Assembly: GCF_022201045.2 (NCBI RefSeq)
Contig: NC_068556.1
Location: 22,859,501 to 22,923,500 of the forward strand
Direction of reading: 5' to 3'
Source of the DNA: Citrus sinensis
Taxonomy: Eukaryota; Streptophyta; Magnoliopsida; Sapindales; Rutaceae
Length of the DNA stretch: 64,000 nt
Below the pieces are notes generated by a model. The model had not been told where the DNA came from. It did not search any database and worked only from the letters and a program-made list of their open reading frames with translations. Numbering within the stretch: position 1 is the first letter of the stretch; each line of letters begins with the position of its first letter. The translations under genes were made by a program, and so were the position numbers. Shown here piece by piece: positions 20,144 to 64,000 of the stretch.

Positions 20144-20147
<4 letters not shown>

Positions 20148-20191: not shown

Positions 20192-20194
<3 letters not shown>

Positions 20195-24524: not shown

Positions 24525-24545
24525 ATCAATGTTATTTTGTAACCA
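24525..24545. repeat. Left target duplication of SINE (21 bp)
   Basis: Matches 24732-24752 at 19 of 21 positions. Both begin ATCAATGTTATTTT. Confidence 0.85.
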
Positions 24546-24731: not shown

Positions 24732-24752
24732 ATCAATGTTATTTTATAGCCA
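24732..24752. repeat. Right target duplication of SINE (21 bp)
   Basis: Partner of 24525-24545, with two mismatches. Confidence 0.85.
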
Positions 24753-28494: not shown

Positions 28495-30471
28495 TCAATC
28501 CAACACAACTAGCTTCTGATACTCCTGTCCAGAGATGGCAGCTTCCATGACTTGCTCTGGGTTTATTACCCCTTCATTATCCAAGAACAATGTCAGCATA
28601 TTCTTTGAAAACCCACTAACAAGAGCCACCCCTTTCTGCGTCCCAAGCACCGGCGTGGACCTTGAGTCTCTTAAATTCCAAAAAACAATCTCTGGCACCA
28701 CTGACCCATACCCTTTTTCTTTATACTTGCTCACAATTACTTGATAATCTGTTTCCCAAGGATTCGCAGAAGCTTGATCAAATTCCATGTCACTAAACAC
28801 AAATAGTCTCTTTATCATCTGTTCAGGTTTCAAGTTTCCATTCACAGCAACTTGCAGTATCAGATCGAACACTTTCTGAAAATCAGTGTTCATCCCCCAC
28901 TCCATTTCCGTCACAAAGTCAGTCCTAGATCGAAGACTATCTCCTTCCAGAACCTGAAGCTCAGGATTTTCACTGAACGTAATAAGCTTCCCTTTCCATG
29001 GCTCTTCACTTAATTCAGACACCAAAACTCCCAGAGCAACAGAGACCTCCATTGGAGTTCCATGCATGCTGCCAGACACATCACAAATAGCCATACAATT
29101 CCTCAATTTCCCCTTCTGCATTAGATCATCAACAATCCTTTTCCACTGAAGCTCTGCCACTTGCCCACCATCGAAAGGATCATCTAAAGACCCGATTATC
29201 TCATGTGGAAGCAACGCACCAGCAGCAATTTTTGCCTTTCCAGCCTTCACATCTTCTAAATATTTCTTAAACCGTTCGGGGTCATGCATCAAAAACTTGT
29301 CTTTGTATAACTTCATCGCTACAGAGGCCACTCTGTTGTAAGGTAACGAGTCCCATCTATTGGCGCCTATGTACACTTCTGGCAACTCAAGAGCCTTCCT
29401 CAGCGGCACCAGCACTTGTTTTCTCAACCGATCACGCACCCTGTAAGCGTAATGAGCGTCTTCAATTCCTTCGTACTCTGTGTACAGTGTTTTCGGAAAC
29501 ACTTTTCTGGCAATGCTCTCGCAAATCAACGTGGCCCTGTCAAAGGACGAATCAATGGATGGGCACCACTTAGCAGCCAGGCTGATCTTTGTAACCTCAC
29601 CGGATTCGTACAACTTCATGTCGTTTTTTAGGCACTCAGCGAAATGATCCGAAACGCGGTCGTATAGGAAACGGAAATCCGGATCAGAAGAGTATCTTGC
29701 TATAACTTTCTTTGCCGTATCAATCTTTTTCTCCTTTCTCAAGGCGCTGGCTCTCTCTTTTTCCAATTTGTTCCTCTGCATCGCGTTGGCGACTCTTAAT
29801 TCTCTTGTGTCAGCCATAGCCGGTTTCTTGTTTCTTCTTTTTGGCTGCTGCTTGCAGTTTCTGCTCCTACTCATTATCATTCTGAATTTGCGGCCACGTC
29901 TTGAGTAAATCCTCTTCTTTACGATGCCGCTGCCCCCACGTTTTCTCCTCTCCCACTCAGCTTTTTGAATCTGCCTCACATCGGATCCTTCTAGAAGCCG
30001 GTAGATAATCTCCGGCAGATCCTTAAAGTATCCGAACTCAGCAAACAACGCCACGTTGCAAGCGAACGTCTTTGGATGCAACGAGTGGAGCCAAAGCGCT
30101 GCCGTATAGAACCCTTCTTTATCCGACTTTCCCGTGCCACGGACGCCCCGTAAATTACAGATCAGCTTGAGCGTGGTCAACGGATTGTGGGCCCAGGAAG
30201 CGTTAAGGAACCCTGTCAAAGTCTGAGGTGGCGTGCTGGGTACCACATGGAAGAAGAAATCGAGACAAGGGTTGCCGGAAGAGAGAAACGTTCCGGATCC
30301 GTTTTCGGTGAAGCCCATGGGAGGAGGCGTGGGGGTGGCCATGGCGGTTTTGTTAAAATTAGCCGCCATCAGATTCATGAATGGATCACTTATGGCCGCC
30401 GTTGGATCTGATTGTTTCGATTGTTGTTGTGGGTTTGAGTTTCGGAGCTCCGGCGGACCCAATAGAGCCAT
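28495..30471 (-). CDS. DUF2828 protein with vWA-like (MIDAS) domain
   Basis: Single-exon ORF, 658 codons, starting MALLGPPELRNSNP. The N-terminal part includes CLDFFFHVVPSTPP and AWAHNPLTTLKLICNLRGVRG-like sequence, typical of the plant DUF2828 family (relatives of Arabidopsis At5g43400 and At3g24780). A basic segment follows near residues 170-250 (RKRGGSG, QPKRRNKK), perhaps a nuclear signal. At about residue 460 lies CDVSGSM, the Asp-x-Ser-x-Ser metal-ion site of von Willebrand A domains, and later FSDMEFDQA. Length is close to the usual 600-700 residues and nothing is broken. Biochemical function is unknown; a metal-dependent protein-interaction module is the inference. Confidence 0.93.
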   Translation of the reverse strand: MALLGPPELRNSNPQQQSKQSDPTAAISDPFMNLMAANFNKTAMATPTPPPMGFTENGSGTFLSSGNPCLDFFFHVVPSTPPQTLTGFLNASWAHNPLTTLKLICNLRGVRGTGKSDKEGFYTAALWLHSLHPKTFACNVALFAEFGYFKDLPEIIYRLLEGSDVRQIQKAEWERRKRGGSGIVKKRIYSRRGRKFRMIMSRSRNCKQQPKRRNKKPAMADTRELRVANAMQRNKLEKERASALRKEKKIDTAKKVIARYSSDPDFRFLYDRVSDHFAECLKNDMKLYESGEVTKISLAAKWCPSIDSSFDRATLICESIARKVFPKTLYTEYEGIEDAHYAYRVRDRLRKQVLVPLRKALELPEVYIGANRWDSLPYNRVASVAMKLYKDKFLMHDPERFKKYLEDVKAGKAKIAAGALLPHEIIGSLDDPFDGGQVAELQWKRIVDDLMQKGKLRNCMAICDVSGSMHGTPMEVSVALGVLVSELSEEPWKGKLITFSENPELQVLEGDSLRSRTDFVTEMEWGMNTDFQKVFDLILQVAVNGNLKPEQMIKRLFVFSDMEFDQASANPWETDYQVIVSKYKEKGYGSVVPEIVFWNLRDSRSTPVLGTQKGVALVSGFSKNMLTLFLDNEGVINPEQVMEAAISGQEYQKLVVLD

Positions 30472-45000: not shown

Positions 45001-48000
45001 CAGTTCCCTAGGCAGACCACGGAGGTTTTCTGAGCAGTTTTTGAAGGAAGAAAAAGAGAAGCTTAATCAATACAGGGAATCTGTCAGAAATCATTATTCT
45101 GAACTCCGGTCTGGTACTAAGGAAGGACTTCCAACTGATTTAGCTCGACCTTTGTATGTTGGGCAACGTATTATTGCTGTTCATCCTAGGACAAGAGAGA
45201 TTTGCGATGGAAGTGTACTCACAGTTGAACATAGTAGGTACAGGGTTCAATTTGACAAGCGTGAACTAGGGATTGAGTTTGTCCAAGTAAGTCATTTTAT
45301 TGCATATCTATCAACATCTTATTTATTCATTTTATTTAATCAAAAATCTTTTGGAATCTTTGTTCTGTTATTTGATAACTATGAATCTTTTAACTCAAAA
45401 CAATTGGCATAGTGGATTCTCTTGTCCTGTGATGGCAAAGATGGTACTCAAAGTTTCTGGTGGTTTTTCTTTGATACAGTTTACTCAATAAATACTAGAC
45501 AGTGTTTGCCTGTAGTGAATTGCTCCTTTCAGTTATCCTTGTATTAATTCATGCTGTTGTTGGAGAGCTTTATGAGCTGGGAGGTCTACTCTTAAAGTTC
45601 TCTAATTAAGTTAGAGCATCCTCATCATAAATGTGTGAGATGACTGCTACATTCTCTAAAACTTAAGAACTCAAGAGGGCTTCCAGTAAGAGAATAGAGC
45701 AAATCCAAATAAATGAATACAACAGTGTTTGCTGATCTGAGTGAGAATAAGATTAGAATTGACGATGACAGTTCCAAAAAAAAAGGCAAGTTTATGTTAA
45801 AACACCTTCCTAGTTCCCCCAAACCTCTAATACTTCAAAAAATTATTTACCATTATTGCTAATTTATATGTCAAATACTTGGTTCTGGATGCTGACAATG
45901 TCAATTGTTCATCACTTTCTGCCAGAAAACTAGCAAAGTATCTGAATTGTAATACCCATGAACGGTGTTTTGCTAACTTACTAATGTAACAATTCATTTT
46001 GTTTGAGATATCTATTACTAATCCTTATTTTACTTTTTTTCCTGTTTCCCTTTTTTTTTTTTCAATTATTATGGACCTTTTCCGTGGCAGGATATTGATT
46101 GTATGCCTTTAAATCCGTTGGAGAATATGCCTGCATCTCTTACAAGGCCAAATGTAGCTTTTGGTAAATTTATGGATAATTTCACCGAGCTCCAAATGAA
46201 TGGGCAGCCAAGAGAAAGGGATATTGAAGGGTACATGAAATTTACCCCTTGTGAGAACCTTGAGACTGCCTATGCTCCCTCTCATATCTCCCCTTCAACC
46301 AATTATCCCATCAACAATTTATTACAGCAACATAAGGTAATGAGATTTTTGTTATATGCCTATTAAATTGACTAAATCCCAAACCATTGATCTTGTGATT
46401 TGCTGGCGTTTTTCTTATTACAAAATGTTAACTTTAAGGAACAAAAGTGTGCTTCAATTGCTTCGTGTGAATCTTTTAATATAAAACTGCTATATTCTAC
46501 TGATTGTTCTTCTAGACTTAACTAAGTGAAACATGATCTCAACTGTGTATTCCACCTGCAATGATGTTCTTCTCTCATATCTTGTTATATAGAGCCGTAT
46601 CGCCCCCACTGCACCAAAATTTTTTCCCCCTTTTTTTCTTCTTTCAGAAGAACCATAATCTTATTCCTGTTATTAAATATTTGAGGAATTTTCCGGAAAC
46701 AGAATAATGGTTATCTTATTGAGGAGGAAACTGTTTTGAGCAGGGGGTTTCATATACTGACTCAGAAGTTCATGTGGGGTCTACTGGACAAGCGAAGGAA
46801 GAAGATGTACTAGCTCTTTCCCACTTGAGACATGCGCTGGACAAAAAGGTTTTACATCTTGTTAGCCAATAGTGCATCAATTGTAGATGTTCTCTGCTGA
46901 TGAATTTTCCTTTTCATTTGTTTTTATGCAAGTAGTTCAATGAAATGTCTCTCTTTTGTTATGAGTTTATAACTTTATATCCTGGCATATTGGTACTTAA
47001 GGTTGCACCTTTAAGTACAGTTCTCTTCGATGTTTTTATCACTGCACTTCTTTTTATCATTTTTTTCTACTATCATGAAACTTTTTCATCCAAAGCTGCA
47101 TTAAGAAATTATTCTGAATCTTTTTCATCTAAAGCCGCATGACGAAATTAATCTAAGTTCTGCTGTTGGCATTTATATTTGGGAAAGAGCTGATGGCTCG
47201 TGTTATAACTTCTAGGAGGCAATTGTGTCTGAGTTGAGGTGCATGAATGATGAAATTTTGGAAAATCAAAAAGATGGAGACAACTCTTTTAAGGATTCGG
47301 AACTTTTTAAGAAGCACTATGCTGCAATACTATTGCAGCTAAACGACATTAATGAGCAGGCATGAGTTCTTTGTGGCACATTACAGCTTTGCTCCCTTCT
47401 CCTTTATTTTGCACCATTATGATCTGATAATTTTTCAATTGCTTGACTTGATTGGTCTTTCTTGTGCAGGTTGCTTCTGCTCTTTTCTGTTTGAGGCAAC
47501 GCAACACATACCAAGGGAACACTTGTCTCACAGGGTTAAAACCCATGTCTGGATTAGGTAACCTTGGTGGCGGCCTCCCAAATTCTTTCGATCATTCTGC
47601 ATACCAAACCCCAGAATCTGGACCTCATGTGGTTGAAGTGGTTGAAAGTTCAAGAAGTAAAGCCCAGAAAATGGTTGATGTGGCTGTTCAGGTAAGCAAG
47701 GCCAACAAATTATTTTTTGTCCTGTCCTGTTCTGCTCTTTGCAGGTATCCTGCAATACTTACAAAATTGTATAGAGATGAGGATTATAATCTTTCCATTT
47801 CTTTTAACTTCCTCTAAATTGAAATATTTTACTTCTCAAATTGAAGAATTTACAGTGAAAAAATCACATCTCCTACAACCTTTGTTTGGTGTGGATCTTC
47901 CCTCAGTTGTATTCCAAATGCTCAACCCATCAGTGTGCAGACTATACTAATATTGACCTTGATGGCCAAAGAAATGTTCTGTTTTTTTTTTCTGGTTTTC

Positions 48001-48775
48001 CGTGGGGAGTGGGGCTGTTGTAGTATTTGGTTAGGACTTGATTTAGCCATTTTGAGGAAAGATGTTTCAACATCCAGTCTTTTGAACAATGGGTTGTAAT
48101 TTTGGCATGTATAGATTTAATTAATTAATAATGCAGTGCATTTATTAATATTTTAAGACTAAACTCACTATTGCAGGCATTATCGTCATTGGAGAAAGAA
48201 GGAAATGGAATTGAGAGGATTGAGGAGGCTATGGATTATGTTAACAATAAGCTTGCAGGAAATGATTCAGGCATGCCATCAATTAGGTCATCTACCTCTG
48301 CAGATTTAGTTCACAGCTCTCGTAATTCTCAGGATCAGCAGCTGGAGACACATACAACAAATCTATTGGCAAATAGTCGTGCGCCTGATTCTACATTGAA
48401 CAATTCATCTGATGAAAATTCTGCCCACATTCCCTTGGAACTAATTGCACACTGTGTAGCGGCCTTGTTCATGATTCAGGTAAATTTTAGGATTCTAATG
48501 TAATCTTATTTGGATTGTTATGAACTCGACACACATTAATGTGGCTTATATTCAAAACTATGTAAATCCCTGACCCCTGATAATTCTCATAATCCCATAT
48601 GCAGAGATGTACAGAACGAGATTTTCCTCCGGCAGATGTTGCTCTGGTTCTAGATTCTGCAGTCACGAGTTTGCAGCCATGTTGTTCACAGAACCTTCCA
48701 GTTTATGCGGAGATACAGAAATGCATGGGAATAATCAGAAACCAAATATTGGCATTGATACCTACATCTACATAG
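39023..48775 (+). CDS. ALY: ALWAYS EARLY (ALY) protein, LIN9/Mip130 homologue
   Basis: Eighteen coding exons give 1,152 residues: 39023-39127, 39875-39973, 40360-40422, 41124-41201, 41594-41786, 42052-42311, 42397-42775, 43505-43582, 43739-43971, 44329-44646, 44726-44904, 45004-45286, 46091-46336, 46744-46848, 47216-47359, 47470-47691, 48177-48479, 48605-48775. A SANT/Myb domain lies at about 40-100 ([20 protein letters not shown], then [16 protein letters not shown]). The DIRP domain that defines LIN9 proteins is at about 610-720 ([32 protein letters not shown]). Basic stretches ([16 protein letters not shown]) look nuclear. ALY proteins are the LIN9 subunit of the plant DREAM/MMB cell-cycle repressor complex. 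A 5'-UTR intron (38507-39005) is likely. The intron after exon 15 uses a GC donor (CAG|GCATGA, 47360). The last five exons are duplicated downstream (59503-61757). Confidence 0.94.
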
Positions 48776-49469
48776 CATTAGCATAAGGCTAAATACTCTG
48801 AAGTATCTTGTATGTAAAATCTGCAATGCATGAATTTTGTCGCCTCATATCGTGCCTGTGTACGTTTGTGTCCATACACTTTTTTTTATCTCAATAATTA
48901 TTTTTTTCATACGTCAAATAAAATTCCAGTACTCATTATCAGTAATTCAGTATCCGAGAAACCTTCCAGATCTGAAGAAGGAAAATTGGAGAAATTGACA
49001 TGGCTTCTTTCGGCTTCTGAATCAAACTATGTGATGAATAATTTGTAGCATTTTGTCTTCAATTGGTTACTACTTATATTCCTCATTATATGCAGAGTAT
49101 ACGGGCTATAAAATCATAGGGCTGCAACCATCGATATCAACAAGAAATCACGCACGTCTAACTCTTTTTTTCTTTTTTCCCCCTTCCAGTCAAGGGTATT
49201 GCAGGATAAATTTTAGTGACTTGACAACAAAAGGTGGATAATGAATGACCCATCAACTAATTTTGCTACACAATTGACCAAACGCGTCACTGCAAATGAT
49301 CAAAAGCTACAATGACTAATTCGGTATACAGCGAGAGACCGATATAACCAAAAGCCTATTGTCATTGCTACACCATTCCTCCGTGTTCTGCTTTCCTGCT
49401 TCTTCTCCAGTACATTCAGGGTTTTAATCCGTTAAAACAGGTTTTTCATGCGGTTCGATATTAAAACCA
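48776..49469. other. ALY 3' UTR and convergent spacer (in duplicated block)
   Basis: Non-coding. It matches 61758-62407 of the second copy with indels. The + strand frames here are short and unlike any family. Confidence 0.5.
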
Positions 49470-49838
49470 TCACAATTTTAACTTCTTTTTGGGACTTTTC
49501 GACAGAGCAGATTCACCACCTGCAGCAGAAAAGACGTAATCAGCCAGCGCTCCAAAAAAACAAAATAAGTGAATATAAAGACCATCAATGGACAGAACCT
49601 GTTGCTTTTTGCCTTTTTTTTAATTTTTTTTTGTTTTTATTCGTTTTCTTTTTCATTTTCTCAAGTTCCTTTGGCTCAGAGTTTCCAGCTTGTATGCGAC
49701 AAACAAAAACACCACGACAGCCTTGATATCAAGTTATATATATGAATGCCAACTTAACGCACCTCAGAGTCACTAAACGAACTCGCATGTCCAGTGATTC
49801 TACCTGAATTTGAAGACCCCACCTGACCTGCAAAGGGG
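49470..49838 (-). pseudogene. 3' fragment of the convergent gene (copy in A1)
   Basis: On the - strand it matches the last three exons of the gene at 62408-64000. Examples are TCTTCAAATTCAGGTAGAAT (exon C), GAAACTCTGAGCCAAAGGAA (exon D) and CCCAAAAAGAAGTTAAAATT before the stop (exon E). The 5' part of exon D is missing and exon C has gained a base (GTGGGGTC instead of GTGGGTC). Exons A and B are absent, so it cannot make the protein. Confidence 0.85.
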
Positions 49839-49975
49839 GAGAAGTAATCAGTCCCAGTGCACTAACAATGTATACGTTTTGCATCGATACATGCATCACT
49901 TATCACACATTAAGAAGGCCTGAACAACAAGATGAATAAGTTTTTACCTTTTACTAATATGGTGCTTTGATTTCT

Positions 49976-50371
49976 TTCTTTAGTACTTGATTTTTACTAT
50001 TTTTAAGGACAGTGTAACCGTTTATAAGGGGCTGCAGAAGAATGAAAATCTCCCTCTAAAATACGGAAGAAACGGTATATCCTTATGGCCCGCTGGGTAT
50101 GGAATACTGGATATGATGGGATAGGATAACATGTGATAAGATGAAATGGGTTAGATTATGATAAAATTGAATATGATTTCGCTAAAAGAAATCCAACTTG
50201 AACAATCCGGAGTTCAAGCTTGTGAGGAGAAAACAGTCAGGAACTTTGCTGCGGCCACAGAGAGAGGAAAAAAGAGACCGAGAGAGAGATTAAAAGAAAG
50301 GCTAACTCTGTGTTACGATGAACGTAACATACATTCAAAAGAAACAATATCAATAGATACCCCTAATTTTT
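49976..50371. other. Junction segment between duplicated block and pararetrovirus
   Basis: Homology to the second block stops at 49975 and clear viral coding sequence starts at 50372. The host-virus border lies somewhere in 50200-50372. GGCCCGCTGGGTATGG near 50089 resembles the start of a Tourist-type element, but no partner end was found. Confidence 0.5.
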
Positions 50372-50725
50372 ATGGAAACTACACTATTTGAATTAAAAGA
50401 AATACTTTTAAATCTTAAAGAAGAAATAAAAGAAATTAAACAAGAAATAGGAAAAATAAAAATAGAATTATCTGTAATCCAAATAAGTCATAAGAAAAAT
50501 AAAAGAATAGAAAAATTTGAAATACTAAAATCTGGAATAATTGGGACAAGCTTTAAAGAGCCCATACAAAAACCTCAACCAGGTAGTTATGATGACTGGT
50601 TCATAAAGACTCAATACCCAAAAATATTAGAAGAAATAGAAAAACTGAAAGCAGAATTAAAAACTAAAGAAAAAGGTAAAGAAAAATTAGAAATAAAAGA
50701 AACATCACCTAGCGATACAGATTAA
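50372..50725 (+). CDS. Viral coiled-coil protein (virion-associated-protein-like)
   Basis: Intact ORF of 117 codons. The first 55 residues form a Leu/Ile heptad pattern rich in Glu and Lys (LKEILLNLKEEIKEIKQEIG), a strong coiled coil. The C-terminal half is Lys/Glu-rich and includes PQPGSYDDWFIKTQYPKILE. Small size, N-terminal coiled coil and position just before the capsid gene match the virion-associated protein of caulimovirids, which tetramerises and decorates particles. Its TAA shares one base with the next ATG (TAATG, 50723-50727). Homology itself is inferred from structure and position. Confidence 0.65.
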   Translation: METTLFELKEILLNLKEEIKEIKQEIGKIKIELSVIQISHKKNKRIEKFEILKSGIIGTSFKEPIQKPQPGSYDDWFIKTQYPKILEEIEKLKAELKTKEKGKEKLEIKETSPSDTD

Positions 50726-52039
50726 TGGATGAAACACTAGAAGAATTAACAGAAAAATTTAGTGATATAAATCTAAGTGATTTGGAAGAATTTGAAAGAG
50801 AATATTATATAAAAATGAATGTTACTGGAGGACCAGAAATGAAACCTAATGTAGCAGAACCAAGCCATAAGTATGAAACAAATAAAAAGAAAAATAGACC
50901 ATTTTTTGAATATTATCCACCTATCAAAAATAACCAATGGAAAAAAGAATACCAACCTAATAATGACCATTTAATACCAATAAGCAATGCAGGCACATTT
51001 ATAGATTTAGACTGCAAAACAGATCCCCGAAAGGCCTTAGTAGAATGGGAAATGCAAATGAAATTATTTTTTCTGTTTAATGGATCAAGAGAAGATTGGA
51101 ATGTGGAAACAGAAGAAGAAAAAATAAATATATTTGCTGATATTTTAATAGCAAGCTTCACAGGAAATGTATTTAATTGGTGGAAAGGATTAAGTGAGGA
51201 TACACAAAAATTAATAAAGGATTCAACTAAGATAGCATTAGGAAAAAATAAAGGATTAGGAATTGAAAGAATAATCGAATATATTGCTAGTGAATTTTTA
51301 GGGGAAGATTGGTTACTAAACTCAAAAAATGAATCAAAACGTGATAAATTAGAAGCAAGAATGAAATTGATAAATTTAACAATTTGTAATATGTGTTTTG
51401 TAAAAGAATATACTTGTGAATTTTCTAAATATTATTATACCCAATTTATGAGTCATGAAGACCAAAATATTTATAAAAATTTATACTATTCAAAACTTCC
51501 TTACCCTTGGAATGGATATTTTACTAATGAATATGAAAAATATACTAGTAATAATGAAAATAGACTTTCAGACACATTAGGATCTAGAATAAGGTTTTTA
51601 AATACAAGATTAAGTGAAATATGTATTCAAAGAAATCTAATAAAAAAGAGTAAAAATATTACGAAAATATGTTGTGAAAAAACAGAAATGCCTACTCAGT
51701 GGGGATGTTATACACCTCATAAAAGACACAGAAAATCTTACAAAAAAAAAAAAGATATAAGAAATATAATAAATTTAAGAAAAAATATAAAAAAGCAGGA
51801 AGGAAATATTATAAAAGGAAATATAAAAGCCAAAGAAAAATATTAGATAAATCCAAATGTAAATATTGGAATTGTGGAGAAATGGGACACATCAGTACAG
51901 ATTGTACAAAAAAAAAGTTAGGCTTTTAAAAGAAGATTTTAAAAATATAGAAAGTGATTTAGAAGAAATAAGTAATCTCTCGGAATATGATGGAGAAGAA
52001 GTTTATATGGTAGAAAAATCAGAAGATGAATCCGAATAA
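50725..52039 (+). pseudogene. Viral capsid protein gene, two frame breaks
   Basis: The open part (50725-51846, 373 codons) holds the capsid core: WEMQMKLFFLFNGSREDWNV, then FADILIASFTGNVFNWWKGL. After a run of 12 A (51742-51753) the family-typical Lys/Tyr-rich basic region and the zinc knuckle continue in another frame (51855-51926). After a second run of nine A (51908-51916) the acidic tail continues in the third frame to a TAA at 52037-52039. Each break looks like loss of one A (or gain of two) in a homopolymer. The knuckle reads KYWNCGEMGHISTDC: the first of the four CCHC ligands is Tyr, though a Cys stands two residues earlier. The gene start overlaps the previous stop. Confidence 0.85.
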
Positions 52040-53333
52040 AAAAGAAATAATGGAAAATGAAAAAGTAGAAGAAATAGAAAAAGAAGAAAATAAAAGTGGA
52101 TATAGTCTTGTAGCCACTTTTAATAAAGAAAAATATAATAAACTTTTAAAATTAAATATGGAAAAACCAGAATATGGAATACTACATAGGTTTAGAGATC
52201 TATTTAAAAGAAAAAGAATTATATTACATGAATATTATGAACAAGAAAAAGCAGTAACAATTACACAAGCTGAAGGAAATATTAGATTTAGTTTACTTAA
52301 TAAAAGGTCTATAGACTTGGCATTAAGAAAAATAAAAAGTGAATCAATCAAAGAAAAAATTCAATATGTATATTTGGCAGAAATCCAAATCTTAATAAAA
52401 TCTCTTTTCAAAGAAGGAATAGATAGCCCCATAGTTCTATCATTACATGACCAAAGATTTACAGACCCTGGTATAGGACATTTAGGGACAATAGAAGGGA
52501 ATTTATGTTATACTAAATTATTATTTACATGCCACCCTAGATACTGTGTACATATAAAAGATAAAAATATAGACGAAACATTAAGTTTACATTTTAAATT
52601 ACTAAAGAAAAATCTAATAAAAGAAGGAAATAGAATAATGACAATACACTATTCAGCTTTATATAGTTTTTGTAATTCGAATTATGGAGAAATATATGGA
52701 AATAAACCTTATATAGAAATAAATAAGGATTGTGAAGATATAGCAACATTTATAGAACCTGTAATTCAAGATTACCAAAATCCCATTAATTATGAATTAA
52801 AAATAGATGATAGAAAACCATTTTTAGATAATAATAATGAAAACTCTATAATTCCCATAAGTTTTGCAGGAAGAACTCTAATAAGAGGAAGTTCGTCTAG
52901 AAGATTAAGTACTGATAAACAGTTAGTTAAATCCATACCTACAAATAATGTAATAAAAATACTAGGACAATACTTTAATGGAATAGACTATACAACAAAA
53001 GTACCTATATTGATAGATACTAGTACCAGCCATAATTATATGAACCACACTAAAAATAAAGGACTTTTAGTAAAAGAAAAAAAAATTCCTTATAAATATA
53101 CTGATTTTAATGGTAATAAACATATTTGTAAACAAGAAGTCAAAGTCCCTGTAATAATAGAAGGACTTCGAAAAATAGTACCTTGTTATATAGATTCATT
53201 TATGACTACAGATCCAGAAAAACATATAGTACTAGGAAATAGTTTTTTAAGTGATTTAGAGTATTACAAAATTGAACCAAATAAAATAACTTTCCTTATA
53301 CAAGGTCAAAGAATCGTTTGCGACACATGTTGA
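52026..53333 (+). CDS. Viral movement protein with C-terminal retropepsin-like domain
   Basis: Intact ORF, 435 codons, overlapping the acidic tail of the capsid gene by 14 nt. Residues about 100-250 carry the 30K-superfamily movement-protein signature: SPIVLSLHDQRFTDPGIGHL with the conserved Asp142, then EGNLCYTKLLFTCHPRY. Such proteins form tubules or modify plasmodesmata for cell-to-cell spread. Residues about 310-430 look like an aspartic-protease fold: VPILIDTSTSHNY with Asp331, and IVLGNSFL at 401-408 matching the second LG motif. The catalytic triplet is D-T-S rather than D-T-G, so activity is doubtful. This is separate from the protease in the polymerase ORF. Its stop overlaps the polymerase ATG by 7 nt. 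Confidence 0.85.
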   Translation: MNPNKKEIMENEKVEEIEKEENKSGYSLVATFNKEKYNKLLKLNMEKPEYGILHRFRDLFKRKRIILHEYYEQEKAVTITQAEGNIRFSLLNKRSIDLALRKIKSESIKEKIQYVYLAEIQILIKSLFKEGIDSPIVLSLHDQRFTDPGIGHLGTIEGNLCYTKLLFTCHPRYCVHIKDKNIDETLSLHFKLLKKNLIKEGNRIMTIHYSALYSFCNSNYGEIYGNKPYIEINKDCEDIATFIEPVIQDYQNPINYELKIDDRKPFLDNNNENSIIPISFAGRTLIRGSSSRRLSTDKQLVKSIPTNNVIKILGQYFNGIDYTTKVPILIDTSTSHNYMNHTKNKGLLVKEKKIPYKYTDFNGNKHICKQEVKVPVIIEGLRKIVPCYIDSFMTTDPEKHIVLGNSFLSDLEYYKIEPNKITFLIQGQRIVCDTC

Positions 53334-55198
53334 AACAAGCTTATGTAAAATACCATATGTCTGTTTATATACAAATATATATACCAGAAAAAGACATAGA
53401 TACTTGTGCTTTAATTGACACAGGTAGTGAAATAACTATTATGAAATCTTTTTTATCTAATAGATGGGAATCAAATGAAAAATTAAAAATTGTAGGAATT
53501 ACCGGCGATAAACAACAAGTAAATCAATCCATATTAAACTTTGAAATATTATTAGGCAGTAAAATAATTAGTATTAACCAAATCTTTCAATATAATAATC
53601 TAGATTGTGATATACTTTTAGGTAATGACTTTCTACAACAATTTCAATATTACCAGCAGACTACATACATGATCACCTTAAAAACCCCTTGTAATCATAT
53701 TTTACGAATCCCTCGTGAATTCCGACCTTACAGAGTTCAGCCAGCCCAGCGTGGTGATAAATACATTTATGAAAAATATTATTTAATACAAAAAAGTCAG
53801 AGTTACAATATACAACTAGAGACAATAAAGTCACAACTTGAACAAGTTTATAAAGAAAACATGTTAGCATTATGGAAACCAGATCATCCTAAAGCAAAAA
53901 TAGAATTAATTGAAGAGAGAATCATAAGATTAAAACCCATGATGTATACAGCAGAAGATAGGGAAGAATTCAAAATCCAAATAAAAGAACTATTAAATCT
54001 AAAATTCATTAGAAGTAGCAATAGCCCACATAACAGTCCAGCATTTATGGTTAGGAAAAGAGCAGAACAAGTTAGAGGAAAAGCAAGAATGGTAATAAAT
54101 TATAAAGAACTAAATAAATATACAAAATTTAATGGATATTTTCTCCCTAATAAAGAAGTATTGATAAATCTTGTGAAAAATAAGACCTATTATTCAAAAT
54201 TCGACTGTAAATCAGGATTTTGGCAAATAAAGATGGAAGAAAATAGTATTCCTTACACAGCTTTTAGCACCCCACAAGGACATTATGAATGGTTAGTAAT
54301 GCCTTTTGGACTAAAGAATGACCCTCAAATTTTTCAGAGTAGAATGGATAAAATATTTAGAAATTATAACTATATTATAGTATATGTTGATGATATATTA
54401 ATAGCATCAGAAACAGTGGAGGAACATAGACATCATTTAAAGGAATTTGTTAATACATGTATTAAGGAAGCTATAGTATTATCTAGTAAGAAAGCAATTA
54501 TAGAACATAAGAAAATAGAATTTTTAGGAATGATACTCGACAAACAAGGTATTAGACTTCAGAACCATATAGGAAGAAAAATAATCGAATTTCCAAATAA
54601 ATTAGAAAATAAACAACAAATACAAAAAATTTTAGGCTGTTTAAATTATACTGAAGGATTTATAAAAGATCTAGCAAAAAAGAGAAATATACTTCAGAAA
54701 TTACTAAGAAAAAATAATACTAGAGGATGGAGTGAAGAATATACAAAAACAGTAAAAAATCTAAAACAAGAATGTAAAAACCTCCCAGCATTAAGATTAC
54801 CAAATGAAAAAGATAAATTAATAATCCAAACAGATGCATCAGATTTATATTGGGGAGTAATTCTGAAAACTGATATAAATGAAATTTGTCGATATACAAG
54901 TGGAACATTTAATCAGGCACAAATCAATTATCCAGTACATGAAAAAGAACTCCTTGCAATATACAAAGGAATTAAAAAATTCTCATTATTCTTACTTCAA
55001 AAATAATTTATTGTAGAAACAGATAATTCTCAAGTAAGCTCTCTTATTAATAGAATTTTACCAAATGAACCTCAGTATAGAAGATTACATAGATGGCAAG
55101 TTTATCTGTCCTATTACAATTTTAAGATAGTACATATAAAAGGGACTAACAATTTTCTTGCAGACTTTTTAAGCAGGAACATAGAATTTGGAGAATGA
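53327..55198 (+). pseudogene. Viral polymerase: aspartic protease-RT-RNase H, one in-frame stop
   Basis: I place the start at ATG 53327, which overlaps the movement-protein stop. Protease: CALIDTGSEITIM at about residue 27, with CDILLGNDFL about 65 residues later. RT: ARMVINYKELNKYT, KFDCKSGFWQI, TPQGHYEWLVMPFGLKN and the catalytic YVDD at about 353-356. RNase H: IIQTDASDLYWGV, HEKELLAIYKGI, then after an in-frame TAA (55004-55006) the same frame continues with VETDNSQV and NFLADFLSR to TGA 55196-55198. The stop removes the last two catalytic Asp of RNase H. GLKNDPQIFQ has Asp where family members usually have a small residue. No integrase is present, which separates it from Ty3 elements. Confidence 0.92.
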
Positions 55199-56214
55199 AT
55201 TCCGAAGCAAATAGAATTATCGGAAAAATAGAAGCCGAGATACAAAGACTCAAGACTGAAGCATCTGACATAATTGATGCAATACGCTACATAAAAGAGG
55301 CTTCTGAGGCTCATGAGAAAGGAGTAAATTTGTTAGAGTCATACATAAACGACTTAACAAAAGTGTTCTCTATAAACACGAGCCCAATAGAAATAAACCC
55401 AAATATAGGAAGCAATAGTGGACCCTTCAGGGAAGATAAACCAATCTCTGACCCAGTTCCAAATAAAACCATATCCATAGAAGTTGAGTCACCAAAATCA
55501 GACCCTCCAAAAAAGTTTATTCAAATAAACAATCCTTACATAGAAGAAGAGGAGAAACCCCTAAATCCAAAAGAAGAATAGTATAAACAATTCTCTACAT
55601 AGGTATATTCCACTTGTTCTCATAATGGTACAATTTTCAAGGCACCTGAAAAAAATATGTACCCCAGAATGATTGTTACAAAAGGAGCAGACCCACTCCT
55701 TGTTGGGAAAATAGCAAATTATGGCTATTTAGACTTAGTATATCCCGATATAGACCTTCGAGAAATAGCCAACCTTGATGATTTATTAATAAAAGAAGTC
55801 TCAAGGTTTGCCCAAAAAAGACCCATATACCTGAAATTTTACACCATAAGCCCAGAATACTATCAGAATGTAGAATACCATACTTTCTATATGATTTCTG
55901 TAGGCCATATTACAAAAAATTTCAAAGTCGAAGTAGGAACAGAATATACAAATGTTCCTCACATAAACAAATCTTGGATCAGAACACGAAGAGCCAGAGG
56001 AATAAAAGCCATATGGAGCATAGCTAAGGATTTGTATAAGAGAAATTTCAGAACTATTATTAAATTTCAGAATTACATCCTTATAACTTCTGAGGATGGC
56101 CATACACCTTCAAATCTGTTACTAGACTTCATCAATGAAATAAGTATTATGTGTTTCCCCAGTAGCAGTAAAACCATGGAGCAGGCTTACCAACTCATGG
56201 ACATAAAGCAATGA
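55195..56214 (+). pseudogene. TAV/inclusion-body-position ORF, two in-frame TAG codons
   Basis: One frame of 340 codons starts at ATG 55195 (overlapping the polymerase TGA as ATGA) and ends at TGA 56212. It is interrupted by TAG at 55579-55581 and again at 55600-55602, leaving open pieces of 128 and 185 codons. The first piece has an N-terminal coiled coil (RIIGKIEAEIQRLKTEAS) and a Pro/Ser-rich stretch. The second contains MIVTKGADPLLVGKIANYGY and RARGIKAIWSIAKDLYKRNF. Position after the polymerase and before the promoter is that of the caulimovirid transactivator/viroplasmin. I infer that identity from position and size rather than a firm motif. Confidence 0.68.
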
Positions 56215-56305
56215 TAGACAAGCTGTGGCCGACAACATAAAGCAATGATAGACAAAGCTGTGGCCGACAACATAAAGCAAGATAAGATAAAGCTGTGGTG
56301 GACAA
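56201..56305 (+). repeat. Tandem repeat (about 35 bp x 3) in viral promoter region
   Basis: Units start ACATAAAGCAATGATAGACA at 56201 and 56235, and ACATAAAGCAAGATAAGATA at 56270. Each contains AAGCTGTGG. The TAV-position stop codon lies inside the first unit. The place, just upstream of the TATA box, suggests enhancer repeats. Confidence 0.88.
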
Positions 56306-56419
56306 GAATAAAGCTACAACAAGACAAGATGAGATAAAGATGCTTGACAAGATAAGGCGTGACATAAAGCTTGGAAAAGAAAAGCTACAACTAGCTGGCA
56401 AGTGACAAAGTTACAACCT

Positions 56420-56530
56420 ATGTAAAAGCCCAATAATATAAGGACAAAAATGTAACAATAATGTAAAAGCCCAATAATACAAGGGCAAAAATGTAATCAT
56501 AAACCCGAAGTAACTTCGGATATAAATAAA
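56420..56530 (+). promoter_or_regulatory. Viral pregenomic-RNA promoter (TATA box, repeat, dyads)
   Basis: A 41-bp direct repeat (56420 and 56461, starting ATGTAAAAGCCCAATAAT) is followed by the dyad CCGAAGT-A-ACTTCGG (56505-56519) and then TATAAATAAA (56521-56530). A second dyad, AAGCTCT-A-AGAGCTT (56537-56551), lies near the expected start of transcription. The layout corresponds to the 35S-type promoter of caulimovirids, which drives the terminally redundant pregenomic RNA. Confidence 0.75.
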
Positions 56531-56551
56531 ATCAATAAGCTCTAAGAGCTT

Positions 56552-56933
56552 ATCATTCAGCCATAACACAATTATCTTCTTAAGTTCTAATGGATAGCTA
56601 AACAACTCCCCGGCTCTAATTCCTAAATCAAGACATCACTAATCAAAAAACAAATAACCCCATAGAAAGGAAAGAGAAACCTAAACTTATTTCAACATTT
56701 CTAAGCCTAAAGATCAAAGATCCATACAGTAAGGCCGATCGAGTCCGCTGATCCCGTTGAGGCAAGGAGGCCGTTGAGGGAATAAGGACAAACAGGCTGC
56801 AGGTCACTGGAAAAGGATTGGAAGGCGAGGAAACAAGAATAAGCTAGGTAATAATTCTCTAACCTTATCTTTGGTGGAAGTTTGTTGATGATTGATGATG
56901 AGGAGATTATGGAAGAAGAGCTAATCTTTAAAC
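56552..56933 (+). other. Viral leader, non-coding
   Basis: Between the promoter and the first leader ORF. It is more GC-rich near 56730-56850 and probably structured RNA. No motif named. Confidence 0.4.
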
Positions 56934-57308
56934 ATGAATAACCTATTGTTAGGAAATTCTAAAGAACATATAATAAATTCGACAACTAGGATAACATATA
57001 ATGATTATATGATGATAATAGATTTTAATTTAGGATCTTTTAAACAAAGTTCCTATCTTTTGAGCAAAGAAGAGCTTGTTAGAATCGAAGATCTACAAGC
57101 AGTATATGCTGTTGACTTACCAAAGGAAATAAAACGGAAAATTATAAACCATATCGAAATAGATAATTTGAAACATAATATAATTATGTTAACAGTAGAA
57201 CAAGGAATTGACATAGCTTTAGCATATATAGAAAACGAAAGTAGAGAAATTAGACCATCAAATATATATTATATAGAAAATTCTGATAATGAAGATCTTG
57301 AAATATAA
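56934..57308 (+). CDS. Viral leader ORF, 124 codons, unknown
   Basis: Intact A-rich ORF between promoter and primer site, about 410 bp downstream of the TATA box. It is acidic (calculated by eye) with the stretch SREIRPSNIYYIENSDNEDL at its end. No family recognised. Codon and base use match the other viral ORFs, so I think it is viral coding sequence and not chance, but the evidence is length and composition only. Confidence 0.5.
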   Translation: MNNLLLGNSKEHIINSTTRITYNDYMMIIDFNLGSFKQSSYLLSKEELVRIEDLQAVYAVDLPKEIKRKIINHIEIDNLKHNIIMLTVEQGIDIALAYIENESREIRPSNIYYIENSDNEDLEI

Positions 57309-57445
57309 GAATTTGACACATATAATGATTAAAAGGTATAAAGGCAAGCAACCCATGACGTAAATTGGATAGACGATCCCGAATGGGCGTTAGTATCCTC
57401 TATACTTTGGGATAACAAGCCACGTACCTATAATCAAGGAAAGTA

Positions 57446-57709
57446 ATGAACATAGATACTTATAGAGAAACCAGATATTATATATACTTCATAAAAATAG
57501 AAGTTTTCTACTACCCAGAAAACTATACACATAATTTAGAAATTTCAAATTTGGATACTAATCCTACATATATTTTGGAAACTAACCATAATTACTATGA
57601 TTTTTATACTCTACCGGATGATATACATAGAATAATTGGAGAAGAACAGGTTATAGCCATATATTTAAGGAATAACAATAATACAGGGTATACTAGATAT
57701 ACGTTATAA
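57446..57709 (+). CDS. Viral leader ORF, 87 codons, unknown
   Basis: Intact ORF rich in Tyr, Asn and Ile, ending 132 bp before the primer-binding site. No domain recognised. It lies in a different frame from the 124-codon ORF. It may be a small accessory protein or a chance frame in A-rich leader. Confidence 0.42.
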   Translation: MNIDTYRETRYYIYFIKIEVFYYPENYTHNLEISNLDTNPTYILETNHNYYDFYTLPDDIHRIIGEEQVIAIYLRNNNNTGYTRYTL

Positions 57710-57841
57710 TAGTGGCTAATATTTGTTAAAATAATAGCATAAATAATTATCTTGTTTAATTTGATTAGCTTATTTTTACATTTTTTATTTTTGTTTACAT
57801 TTGTTATTTTTGTTTACATCATAAGTGCCCCGACACAAAAA

Positions 57842-57855
57842 TGGTATCAGAGCCA
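57842..57855 (+). promoter_or_regulatory. tRNA-Met primer-binding site
   Basis: TGGTATCAGAGCCA is complementary to the 3' end of plant initiator tRNA-Met (14 bases), the minus-strand primer site used by caulimovirids. By convention it marks position 1 of the viral map. It lies about 1.3 kb downstream of the TATA box. Confidence 0.92.
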
Positions 57856-57906
57856 CATAATTTTGTTTAAATTTTAAATAATAAGATACATTTTATTCTA
57901 AAATAA

Positions 57907-58161
57907 ATGGACCCAGTACAAGCAATAGTTAACAGTTTATATACATTAAAAGTATATAATAAAGAAGAAATAAAAAATCTTATAATAGGTTTGAAAACTG
58001 ATAAAAATAACATAAGAAATATAGAACTCGAACTTACAGAGGAACTTAGAGAAAGAAATATAGACACATTAGGAGGAGAAATTTTAATAGAAAAGAAAAT
58101 GAAATTTATAGATGAGTTTATAAAATTTTTAATACATTGGTATAAGAAGGAAGCATTATGA
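57907..58161 (+). CDS. Viral small ORF after primer site, 84 codons
   Basis: Intact ORF starting 51 bp after the primer site. Charged and helical (LKVYNKEEIKNLIIGLKTDK), with no recognised family. Its TGA overlaps the next ATG as ATGA (58158-58161), the coupling used by other genes of this virus, which supports real coding. Confidence 0.55.
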   Translation: MDPVQAIVNSLYTLKVYNKEEIKNLIIGLKTDKNNIRNIELELTEELRERNIDTLGGEILIEKKMKFIDEFIKFLIHWYKKEAL

Positions 58162-58385
58162 ATCATAATCAACATGTATTTAATATGATACATGAATTAG
58201 CAGATTGTATAGATCATATGATTTTAGGATGGGAAAACATACTAAATACATATATAAACCTAATAACTCAGAAAATAGAATTGCTAGAACAAGAAAGAAT
58301 AGGAATAATAAATTTAGGACCAGAAATCTATTATGAAATTATAGATTTATATGAATTCGATAACCATTTAATGTTATTTAAATAA
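58158..58385 (+). CDS. Viral small ORF, 75 codons
   Basis: Intact ORF overlapping the previous one by 4 nt. It starts MNHNQHVFNMIHELADCIDH and is helical, with no recognised family. It is the last viral ORF before the right border. On the circular map it would be followed by the coiled-coil ORF now at 50372. Confidence 0.52.
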   Translation: MNHNQHVFNMIHELADCIDHMILGWENILNTYINLITQKIELLEQERIGIINLGPEIYYEIIDLYEFDNHLMLFK

Positions 58386-58815
58386 ATAAATAAAACTTTA
58401 GAAAGAATGAGAAATAGGTGTAGAAGGGATGGAAGAAGTCAAATACATCCACAACTATAAAAATCAAAAATAAAGGGACTCATAAGAAATTAGCTAAAGA
58501 AGAAAAAGACAAAAAACGTAAGATACGTTTATTGTAACTTAGGTACCAGAAAGCAGCACACAGAAAAAAGAAAAAGAACAGACTCTTGTACTTGATATAT
58601 TCTAGGATAACTTTTAGCTTCAATTTTTTTATCCCAAGGGTCCCTGGGTTACAGATTTTCACATTGTTGATATTACTAATTAGGGGCTTATTTATATCCT
58701 AATCTAACTTTTGACCCCAAACATAGGATGAGTATTATTTTACCCTCAATTAATCCAAGTCTAACTTATTTAATTGTCATTGAAAAACCTACGTAAGGAA
58801 AGTGAATATCTTTTA
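58386..58815. other. Right virus-host junction segment
   Basis: The border of viral sequence lies near 58386-58460. The rest is unassigned DNA not found in the other duplicated block. Confidence 0.4.
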
Positions 58816-59492: not shown

Positions 59493-59502
59493 TCTCTAAA
59501 AT

Positions 59503-61757
59503 AGAATAATGGTTATCTTCTTGAAGAGGAAACTGTTTTGACCAGGGGACTTCATCTAGTTCTAATCTAACTCAGAAGTTCAAATGGGGTCTAGTGGAAC
59601 TGTTAAACACGCGTTACACGCCACGAGCAACATCACGGCCTTCTAATATAGCACATATCCATACGAAGGAAGCTGATGTTCTAGCTCCTTCTGAATTGAC
59701 CCGTGTACTGGACGAAGAAGGTTGTGCATCTTGTTAGCCAATTGTACATGAACTGTAGATGTTTTCTGCTGATGAATTTTGTTTCCTTTCGTGTTTATGA
59801 AAGTAGTTCAACGAAATGTCTCTCTTGTGTTATGTGTTGGTACTCTTAACGTTCCACCTTTAAGTTCAGTTCTTTCCAATGTTTTTATCACTGCACTTGT
59901 TTTTACCATTTTTTTTCTAGTATCATGAATCCTTTTCATCAAAAGCTGCATAAAGAAATTATTCTGAATCTTTTTCATCTAAAGCTGCACAAAGAAATTA
60001 TTCCAACTGGTACTGTTGGCATTTATATTTGAGAAATAAACTGATGGATCGTGTTAAAACTTTTAGGAGGCTACTGTGTCTGAGTTGAGGCACATGAATG
60101 ATGAAGTTTTGGAAACTCAAAAGAGATGGAGACAACTCTTTTAAGGATTCGGAACTTTTTAAGAAGCACTAAAGCTGCAATACTATTTCAGCTACGCGAA
60201 GTTACAAAGCAGGCATGAGTTATTTGTGGAGCACGTTACAGCTTCGCGCCCTTCCCCTTTAGTTTGCAGCATTATGATCTGATAATTTTCCAATTGCTTG
60301 ACTTGATTGTCTTTGTTGTGCCGGTTGCTTCTGCTATTTTTTGGTTGAGGCAACGCAGCACAGACCGAGGGAAACACTCTCTTACAGGGGTCAAAACTCA
60401 TGGCTGGATTAGGTAATCTTAGTGGCCTTCCAAGCTCTTTCGATCATTCTGCACATCAAACGCCAGAATCTAGACCTCGTGTGGCTGAAATTGTTGAAAG
60501 TTCAACAAGTAAAGCCCAGTAAATGGTTGATGTGGCTGTGCGGGTAAGGAAGGCCAAAAAATTTATTTCTGTCCTGTCCTGTTTTGCTCTGCCCTTTGCA
60601 GAATCTTTCCGATTCTTTAACTTTCTCCACATTGAAACATTTTATTTCTCAATTTGAAGAATTTACAGTGAACAAATCACATCTCATGGAACCTTTGTTT
60701 GGTGTGGATCTCCCCTCAATTATGGTCCAATTGCTCAAACCCTTTAGTAGTTTGTCGGCTATACTAATATCGTGGGAATTAATGGAAATATTGAACCTTG
60801 CTAGCAGAAGAAAATTTCTGTTTTCTCTGGTTTTCCATGGGGAGTGGGGCTGTCGGGCCTGATTTGGCAGCAAATGAGGAGCATCCACGCGTTGCAGGAG
60901 AGAGGAAAAGTTGTTGGAACTTAGCTGATACAAGACTAATTTCCATTGAGCTGTTACATACAGAGTCTGTAACGTAGTTTTGTCCATTATTTTATCATGC
61001 CTGCCACTGAACTTTTTAAGATCTGATGTAGTGCTTTTGTTCAGAATGAACCCACTACTACTGCAGGCACTGACATAATGGGAATTGAGAAAATTGAGGA
61101 GGCTATGGATTTTGTAAACAATAGGCGTTCAGGAAATGGTTTAGCCACGCCATCAATTAGGTATTCTACCTTGGCAGATTTGGTTCACAGCTCTCATAAT
61201 TCTCAGCCGAATCCGTCCACTGGCAAATAGTTGTGCACCTCATTCTACATGGAACAATTCATCTGACGAAAATTATGCACAGATTCCTTTAGAACTTGTT
61301 GCACACCGTGTAGCTTCCTTGCTCGTGAGTACAGGCAAATTTTAGGATTCCGATGTATAATCCTATTCGGATTATTCTGAACTCGACACAGTACATTTGA
61401 GGATCTGCTTTCTGAAAGCCCTTCTCAGATGCTGTAAAGTTTTTAGTTATTATTTCGTAATTACAAAGTCTATGTACTCAGTTGATTTTTTTTTTCCTAT
61501 TATTGTCGTCTGTAAATACATTAATGTGGCTTATATTCCAAACTACGTAAATTCTGGACCCTTATTATTCGCATAATCCCATATGCAGATATGTACAGAA
61601 CGAGATTTTCCTCCAGCAGATGTTGCTCGGATACCAGATTCTGCAGCCACGATTTTGCAGCCATATTGTTTGCCGGACCTTCCAGTATATGCAAAGATGC
61701 AGAAATACATGGAAATAATCAAAAATCAAATATTGGATTCGTGCCTACATCTACATA
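59503..61757 (+). pseudogene. ALY 3'-end pseudogene (exons 14-18 equivalents)
   Basis: Matches ALY exon 14 (about 59503-59725), 15 (60067-60213), 16 (60325-60541), 17 (61066-61330) and 18 (61588-61757). It is disabled by an extra base in exon 15 (CTCAAAAGAGATGG against CAAAAAGATGG), a TAA in exon 16 (CCCAGTAAATGG, about 60519), deletions in exon 17 and the lack of everything upstream. No promoter or SANT/DIRP part is present. Confidence 0.9.
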
Positions 61758-62099
61758 GCACAAGGCTATTACTCTGAAATATCTTGTATGTAATATATGT
61801 TTAACACATAAACTTTGTCACCTCATGTTGTGCAACACTCTTTTTGCCTCAATAATTATTTTTTTTAAACCTCAAATACAATTGCAATACTTGTATCATA
61901 AGTATCCGACAATCCGACAAACCTTCCAGATGAAAAATGATTAGCATTTTGTCTTCAATGTTTGTAGCCGAAGGGTCGTTACTTTCATCCCTCCTCATAT
62001 GCAGAGAGTATACGGACTGTGAATCATAGTGTTGCAACGATCAAACTCAACAAGAAATAACAAGCAAATCTAACTCTTCACCTCCAACACCAAACCCCA

Positions 62100-62115
62100 C
62101 CCCCCCCCCCCCCCC
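62100..62115. repeat. Poly-C run (16 C)
   Basis: Homopolymer in the 3' flank of the ALY pseudogene. Such runs are unstable and prone to sequencing error. Confidence 0.9.
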
Positions 62116-62407
62116 TACCCCCCAGGGGGATTCAAGAATTGCAAAGAAAATTGGCTGCTTTAACAACAAAAGGAGGATAATGACTCTCGACTAATTTTGC
62201 TACACAATTGACAAAAGCTTCAAATTAAATGATCAGAAGCTAGAATAACTAATGCGGTATGCAGTGAGTCAGTGACAGATACAACCAAAAGCCTATCTCA
62301 TTCCACTGATTCCCGTGTTCCGGTTTCCTGCTCCTCCAGTTACATTCAGAACTTTAATCCGTTAAAACAGGTTTTTCATGCGGCATGTTGGTCCGATTTT
62401 AACACCA

Positions 62408-64000
62408 TCATAATTTTAACTTCTTTTTGGGCCTTTTCAACATTGCAGATTCACCGTCTTTCACACTCTGCAGCAGAAAAGACATATTCAGCCAACACTC
62501 AATCAAACAAAATAAGTACAACAAAGACCATGAATGGGAAATAACCTGTTGTTTTTTGCCTTTCTTTATTTTTTTGTTTTTCTTCTTTTTCTTACTTGTT
62601 TTCTCAAGTTCCTTTGGCTCAGAATTTCCAACTTCTAATTCCTTAAAGGAATCCTGCAAATTCACAAACAAGGATGCCATAAACAGAAACATCCCAACAG
62701 CATTCATATCTTGTTATAGGAATACCAACTCAACGCACCTCTGAGTCACCAAACGAATTCACATGTCGAATGATTCTACCTGAATTTGAAGACCCACCTG
62801 ATATATAAGGGGGTTCAAATTAATCAGGAACCCGTCCAGCACACTAACAACGCATATATTTTGCATACATACAGATAAAGAAATCAAACCACTGATATGC
62901 ATCACTTACTAATATGGTGCTTTGTCCGGACAGGGATGACATGCCAGGATTTTCTGAAAATTAACTAACTGAAAAAGCTAATGAGGAATATCCATCCAAT
63001 GGTTGCTAATGATGTCTCCGGAATTTATTTTTTTTAATTTGCCAGACTAATTTAAAGGTACCAAATTCTAAGGGCAAGAAAATCAGCTAATTACTTAAGT
63101 TTTCATGTCTCACTAGCATGACATCAATCCACCACTCTCATATAAATATAAATAAACATGAAAACGGGCTGTCCAGGATTTAATTTGGAGTGGAGAGAGA
63201 GATCCTTAGCTTTTTCGAAATATCAATCTCCGGAAGCAAAAATAATAGAAATATTTCCTATATGCGCTGAATGCCAATGAAACAAATGGCAAAAATAAAG
63301 TTAAAACAACAGTGAGGCATCATTCCAACTACAAGCTCTCCCCAACAAGATCACTACTAATTGTATCAAGCATTTTGAAGAAAAACCCCAGCCAATAACT
63401 TAAAACTATTCAAAGCTTGCAACTTTGACATGCTATTGCAAATTTTAGTCCGTATCAGTAGTTTCACCAATCTTTTCATAACCATGAAAACGAAAAACCA
63501 AAAAAAAAGAAATTTTAAAATCGATCTTCCATTTTTTATTTTTACATGTTTTCCTTTATTCAGTTATCTCATATGGTTAAAATACCAAGAAAATAACTAC
63601 ATAACCAAACATTTTCTTACGAGGACAAGCAATATATTTTTTTAAAAACCCGCTTACTCGAAAATACAGTGTCTTTGGCATTCTTAACAGCCAATTCAAG
63701 AATATCTGGGTTAATAGAAGACAATCCATCCGGTTCTTTGAGTTTTCTATCTAGGAACTTGGCTAATGCCGCTGCCTTGTTTGTGGTCAACGGTCCACCA
63801 GGATGTGCCAATCTACTACACAAGTAACAGCACAAACATGCATCAATATAAAACCAAAGATATCATACAAACAGCAAGTTAAAGCAAAATAGATATATAA
63901 AAAATAATAAGAATTGAAACCTGGGTTGAGAACGAGAAGAAGAAGTGGCAAGAGAAGGAAGAGGAGCAAATTTGCTGCCTCTCAAAGCTCTTTTTTCTTC
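62408..64000 (-). CDS. Conserved plant protein of unknown function, 3' part (runs off right edge)
   Basis: Five exons on the - strand are in frame: A (64000-63921, partial), B (63812-63658), C (62797-62739), D (62653-62546), E (62467-62408, ending in TGA). The protein part reads KRALRGSKFAPLPSLATSSS, then LAHPGGPLTTNKAAALAKFL, INPDILELAVKNAKDTVFSS, GRIIRHVNSFGDSE, and a Lys-rich tail ending KRPKKKLKL, a likely nuclear signal. Exons A to C look like a conserved helical unit, but I cannot name the family. The start lies beyond the window. It is convergent with the ALY pseudogene, and its 3' exons are duplicated at 49470-49838. Confidence 0.8.

Follow-up and report, generated by a model that had tools for sequence, protein, structure and literature searches.

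Which virus lineage left behind the near unit-length, decayed, endogenous caulimovirid that lies on the + strand of a 64,000-nucleotide stretch of Citrus sinensis DNA (contig NC_068556.1, positions 22,859,501 to 22,923,500; the window, in whose coordinates all positions are given)? The element occupies 50340-58400 (approximate ends, taken over from an earlier note made from the letters alone) and is about 8.0-8.1 kb in size. The earlier note had proposed that its gene order may represent an undescribed lineage. That order indeed fits none of the genera named there (Soymovirus, Caulimovirus, Cavemovirus and Solendovirus); the proposal of an undescribed lineage mostly fails, since the succession of capsid protein (CP), movement protein (MP) plus protease, protease plus reverse transcriptase (RT) plus RNase H, and open reading frame 4 (ORF4) has been published as that of Wendovirus (PMC9794742, as far as the parts of that paper used here go). 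The element is very probably a decayed, endogenous, roughly unit-length Wendovirus-type member of Caulimoviridae, lying between two diverged flanking copies. Its features, all on the + strand, are as follows.

50372-50725, + strand: ORF E, 117 aa, coiled-coil-like (ORF list; 14 of 500 shuffles as periodic)
50725-52039, + strand: ORF1, capsid region, broken (Pfam and reading of three frames)
52026-53333, + strand: ORF2, 30K movement protein with a C-terminal aspartic protease domain, AP1 (Pfam, motifs, profile comparison)
53318-55198, + strand: ORF3 (Pol), aspartic protease AP2, reverse transcriptase and RNase H (Pfam, ORF reading)
55195-56214, + strand: ORF4, in the TAV position, interrupted by stop codons (one frame; N-terminal heptad periodicity, 2 of 500 shuffles as periodic)
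56201-56314, + strand: 3.3 tandem copies of a repeat of about 35 bp, which overlap the last bases of ORF4 and precede the presumed promoter
56520-56528, + strand: TATA-like box ATATAAATA of the presumed pregenomic RNA promoter (letters read directly, function putative)
56590-56601, + strand: three-codon upstream ORF, presumed shunt take-off, whose end lies 10 nt ahead of the leader hairpin
56612-56922, + strand: long unbranched leader hairpin (fold)
56934-57308, + strand: ORF A, 124 aa, first large ORF past the hairpin (protein search and alignment)
57446-57709, + strand: ORF B, 87 aa (ORF list, shuffle test)
57842-57853, + strand: tRNA-Met primer binding site TGGTATCAGAGC (12-mer match)
57907-58161, + strand: ORF C, 84 aa (ORF list, shuffle test)
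58158-58385, + strand: ORF D, 75 aa, heptad-like periodicity (ORF list; 6 of 500 shuffles as periodic)

Wendovirus is a tentative genus named in 2022 and present only as endogenous copies, with a genome of about 7.7 kb and four ORFs: a zinc-finger CP in ORF1, MP plus protease in ORF2, protease plus RT plus RNase H in ORF3, and a conserved ORF4 of unknown function (PMC9794742, passages used here). The Citrus element is alike in the domains of ORF1 to ORF3, in its overlapping ORFs and in being endogenous, and an ORF stands in the place of ORF4. The capsid domain PF22909 is found in the ORF at 50725-51846 (E 3.8e-09), the zinc knuckle zf-CCHC PF00098 (E 2.2e-06) within 51723-51929 in a second frame that overlaps the main capsid frame, and a presumed acidic tail within 51863-52039 in a third, so that ORF1 holds a zinc-finger capsid protein, though the gene is broken. 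ORF2 contains the movement protein PF01107 (E 5.5e-29, in 52026-53333), and its ATG at 52026 is common to its relatives and stands in a frame different from both the main capsid part and the presumed tail. In 53318-55006, Pfam detects RVT_1 (E 4.7e-33), RNase H (E 1.5e-20) and, below its cut-off, the retroviral protease RVP (E 0.0045); among relatives, RVP is above the cut-off in P0004 and Peptidase_A3 reaches E 1.3e-08 in P0003. The end of RNase H resumes in the same frame past a single in-frame stop at 55004-55006, and ORF3 as a whole joins a second protease to RT and RNase H. The ORFs at 55195-55581 and 55657-56214 are in the same frame, separated by stop codons, and they are thus most likely a single decayed ORF4, in which the Pfam scan gave no match reaching the cut-off. 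The domains and their order had been listed correctly in the earlier note, with four amendments: the MP ORF also holds a protease, the capsid gene is broken, RNase H continues past a stop, and the two ORFs behind Pol are most likely one ORF4.

The second protease, AP1, is the diagnostic part of this map. Two motifs, DT(S/G) and LGxxFL, stand in the C-terminal part of ORF2, and DTG is kept in 8/8 relatives that cover the motif. Eleven ORF2 relatives were found among 5460 candidates; PF01107 is precomputed in 11/11 and PF13975 as well in one (P0129), while our scan of six of the 11 (maximal E 5) found PF13975 at the C end in all six, at E 1.4e-05 to 0.17. In hhalign, the AP1 profile (9 of 12 aligned rows, the other 3 not reaching the region) matched the AP2 profile (36 of 37 chosen rows) with 97.4% probability and E 1.4e-11 over 103 columns, whereas four control profiles (RT, RNase H, MP and ORF A) each gave at most 0.5%. 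Judged by these profiles, AP1 is homologous to the Pol protease AP2. Subsets of AP2 matched AP1 with 96.5% (14 wendo-like rows), 84.8% (3 rows), 88.1% (8 rows) and 96.9% (22 Caulimovirus, Ruflodivirus and other rows, one Rosadnavirus included); because these subsets are unequal in size, the comparison leaves undecided whether AP1 is a duplicate of AP2. In the passages used here, PMC9794742 takes the difference in Pfam accessions as excluding a duplication of the wendovirus proteases; the homology of AP1 and AP2 weakens this argument and makes a duplication origin of the second protease conceivable again. The five examined gene models of Sesamum that combine MP and RT (P0057, P0080, P0087, P0107 and P0116) have LGxxFL between the two domains in 5/5 and a later DSG motif in 4/5; they are automatic predictions on what are probably pseudogenes and lend weak support.

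The RT trees drew on the best 120 of 221 matches, all 120 with the window in a quick tree and 48 of them in a careful tree; the genus labels of the named viruses are taken by us as correct. In the careful tree the window joins seven unnamed relatives, P0001-P0007, at 100/100, and in the quick tree 12 relatives at a Shimodaira-Hasegawa-like approximate likelihood ratio (SH-aLRT) of 100. The approximately unbiased (AU) test rejected a placement of the window inside the 20-row Caulimovirus/Ruflodivirus clade (p-AU 0.00065), and likewise that of the window's 8-row clade (p-AU 0.0011), a group defined after the tree was seen. Rosadnavirus stands apart on a long branch; long branches meet in both trees, in the careful one rose yellow vein virus (RYVV) with P0042. 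The tree check suggested by the earlier note has been answered in part, by the union with unnamed relatives and by the rejection of the Caulimovirus/Ruflodivirus placement, and we infer the kinship of the RT with Wendovirus. One caulimovirid-like RT, P0118, is filed under Corynebacterium sp. MC-02 in the public source and is most likely plant contamination.

Caulimovirus and Ruflodivirus are like the element in Pol domains, shunt-type leader and polycistronic map, and unlike it in that the element's RT is rejected from their clade; both place MP before CP. Cavemovirus and Solendovirus have CP upstream of MP with Pol next, and carry CP and MP in one polyprotein ORF, whereas the MP of the element has an ATG of its own at 52026, next to a decayed capsid frame. 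We know of no second protease in these two genera.

Several observations weigh against the Wendovirus assignment. The Pfam scan of the window's own ORF2 gives no protease at E up to 1, the PF13975 matches in its relatives are each under the curated cut-off, and the catalytic triplet in the window is DTS. At AP1, the quality of the predicted ORF2 structure does not suffice to confirm the fold, with no ten-residue block above a predicted local distance difference test (pLDDT) score of 54 from residue 341 on, so the case for AP1 rests on the motifs and the profile comparison; the 20 PDB matches of that model at E 0.001 or better are all virus particle proteins and would stem from the beta-rich MP domain. 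In the careful tree, a moderate branch (86/95) joins the window clade to two sister groups, one of them with Centaurea and Sesamum gene models, and among the 120 RT matches listed none is named Soymovirus, Cavemovirus, Solendovirus, Badnavirus or Wendovirus. The operational taxonomic unit (OTU) "Wendovirus + Xendovirus gp S. tuberosum" is polyphyletic (PMC13308828, in the part used), so that the Wendovirus "genus" may not be one clade; the Xendovirus OTU is likewise described as polyphyletic in the part used of PMC5766536. Finally, Wendovirus is described with 7.7 kb and four ORFs; the element exceeds that length by about 0.35 kb and has five further small ORFs, although the published ORF count may omit small ORFs.

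In a second reading, the element belongs to a separate, unnamed caulimovirid lineage, a genus of its own, that has the Wendovirus large-ORF order and whose distinguishing marks would be the distant primer site, ORF A and ORFs B-E. Only four ORFs appear in the Wendovirus description (PMC9794742, passages used here), the RT clade is the element's own at 100/100, and among the RT matches listed the closest reach 88% identity over 57% of the query (P0001) and 84% over 56% (P0003), while those covering at least 97% of the query have at most 49% identity. We nevertheless regard such a lineage as improbable, for the two-protease arrangement is identical to that of Wendovirus, and the small ORFs of the published elements may simply lack annotation. 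The layout called unusual in the earlier note is accordingly not so for the large ORFs, and it is so for the small ORFs and the leader, which the main text of PMC9794742 does not describe: that main text contains none of the terms primer, tRNA, leader and "small ORF", a statement that covers neither its figures nor its supplements.

This additional anatomy lies between ORF4 and, on the presumed viral circle, the capsid gene. Region 56585-56935 folds at -103 kcal/mol (z -5.14), a stability reached by 0/100 shuffles, and an Rfam scan of 56200-58400 gave a single match, at E 0.91. A short ORF before a leader hairpin is the shunt configuration of the family (PMC5902531, passages used here), and by analogy the leader appears to be of the shunt type, on which ribosomes may shunt. 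ORF A starts 11 nt past the hairpin and is conserved: when the candidates were restricted to proteins of about 68-217 aa, 46/55 matched at E 0.01 or better, with 61-98% identity over 40-100% of the query, 29 of the 46 being at least 108 aa long and the other 17 of 71-101 aa. Their core reads MIIDFNLGSxKQSSY...LPxEIKxKII. The predicted model of ORF A, a beta meander plus one long helix, is confident in one of five models (77.7; the others 42.5-51.1).

An F-box identity of ORF A was considered and is not supported. The hint came from weak Pfam matches to PRANC, presumably F-box-like, in 14/47 members (best E 0.0082) together with the LPxEI motif; on rescan, PRANC appeared in 3/10 members at E 0.12-0.26. 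Foldseek with the ORF A model found nothing at E 0.001 or better (best 0.013 in the viral set and 0.24 in PDB). Nor could ORF A be placed in any known family, and a PDB sequence search with it gave no match at E up to 1. Thirteen other Pfam families, mutually unrelated and each hitting 1 to 3 members, were read as chance, the best being UPF0146 (E 1.5e-04, 3 members). A 17-codon ORF at 56888-56941 overlaps the ORF A start, and MIDDEEI-like words are joined in frame to ORF A in four of the aligned relatives (P0135, P0137, P0175 and P0177), so the true ORF A start may lie in the 17-codon ORF. The ORF2 relative P0122 and the ORF A relative P0166, both on contigs of length 5844, may share one contig.

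The small ORFs exceed chance. Region 56215-58400 contains 4 ORFs that start with ATG and run to 70 aa or more, whereas 1000 dinucleotide shuffles averaged 0.036 such ORFs, never reaching 4 and never yielding one of 124 aa; the minus strand of the same region has one ORF, of 108 aa. In 50340-50730, any ORF of at least 70 aa arose in 5/1000 such shuffles, and the observed 117 aa in 0. Together with the Pfam domains, the primer site and the TATA-like box, these counts confirm what the earlier note had claimed first, a near unit-length endogenous caulimovirid on one strand. The primer site lies 0.92 kb past the hairpin and 1.3 kb past the TATA box, flanked by the four small ORFs other than ORF A. 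ORFs C and D overlap by 4 nt, the stop codon of ORF E overlaps the capsid start, and ORF E presumably follows ORF D on the viral circle.

This arrangement recalls soymoviruses, and a soymovirus relative whose MP gene moved between capsid and Pol would be another, very unlikely, explanation. In the passages used of PMC6482551, an identical primer-site 12-mer is quoted for a soymovirus, the primer site of three soymoviruses lies inside small ORFs, in the coding region and well past the leader, and the small ORFs stand between MP and capsid, preceding the latter, with two of them overlapping by 4 nt; a shunt-type leader is described for most members (PMC5902531, passages used), and wendoviruses are called related to Xendovirus and Soymovirus (PMC9794742, likewise in part). 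On the other side, soymoviruses have MP upstream of the capsid, whereas in the element MP (52026) follows the capsid (50725); no MP-fused protease is attributed to them in the passages of PMC6482551 and PMC5902531 used here, and no soymovirus-named row occurs among the RT matches listed.

The + strand of the element is A-rich, with an AT skew of +0.195 to +0.295 in four 2-kb bins at 50001-58000, the other 28 2-kb bins of the window lying between -0.215 and +0.109. The capsid is split over three frames, one in-frame stop interrupts the RNase H part of Pol and further stops interrupt ORF4, so that a full set of intact proteins is not encodable and the copy is dead; ORF2 and ORF A are still open in it. 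The element is flanked by two diverged direct copies of one segment, presumably host DNA, at 46697-49891 and 59499-62873, with 74-83% identity in pieces. The same self-comparison of the window, listing pieces above 60 bp, matched the element to no other part of it, and scans for related DNA confirmed no relative in viral_contigs (with the Pol ORF, the Pol alignment and the ORF A alignment) or in genome_contigs (with the Pol alignment). Least likely of all is a chimera, put together from two integrations that were nested or recombined; it could appeal to the genome being opened between ORF D and ORF E with the circular junction not visible within the window, yet it is opposed by the one strand and one A-rich skew throughout, by overlapping start/stop pairs at E/CP, CP tail/ORF2, ORF2/ORF3, ORF3/ORF4 and C/D, by a total length within the family range, and by MP adjoining Pol in the Sesamum gene models as well.

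Elsewhere in the window, an mTERF-like host gene region is repeated in tandem at 19673-27139, where a 395-aa ORF at 21584-22771 matches PF02536 (E 1.1e-39), and on the minus strand, at 28495-30471, an open host ORF of 658 aa carries the domains DUF2828 and DUF7788.

In a Wendovirus-type virus with this anatomy, the pregenomic RNA would begin a little downstream of the TATA box at 56520. After translating the three-codon ORF, ribosomes would bypass the leader hairpin by shunting and start again at ORF A; a polycistronic reading may then follow through the chain of short ORFs, crossing what is presumably the former circular junction, and on to capsid, MP-protease, protease-RT-RNase H and ORF4. 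The tRNA-Met bound at 57842 would prime reverse transcription. AP1, fused to MP, probably cuts itself or other products, and AP2 would mature Pol.

The seemingly new gene order is settled as Wendovirus-type, and what the element adds beyond the published description, in the parts used here, is its anatomy: a conserved gene directly behind a shunt-type leader, a primer site well beyond that leader and an MP-fused protease with DTG in eight of eight relatives that cover the motif. We lean, with little more than even confidence, towards the view that Wendovirus-type viruses have more genes than described, in that ORF A comes first after the shunt and four small ORFs surround a primer site about 0.9 kb past the hairpin; their genomes would then combine a soymovirus-like 5' half with a CP/MP-protease/protease-Pol 3' half, in which both proteases would have been kept by selection.

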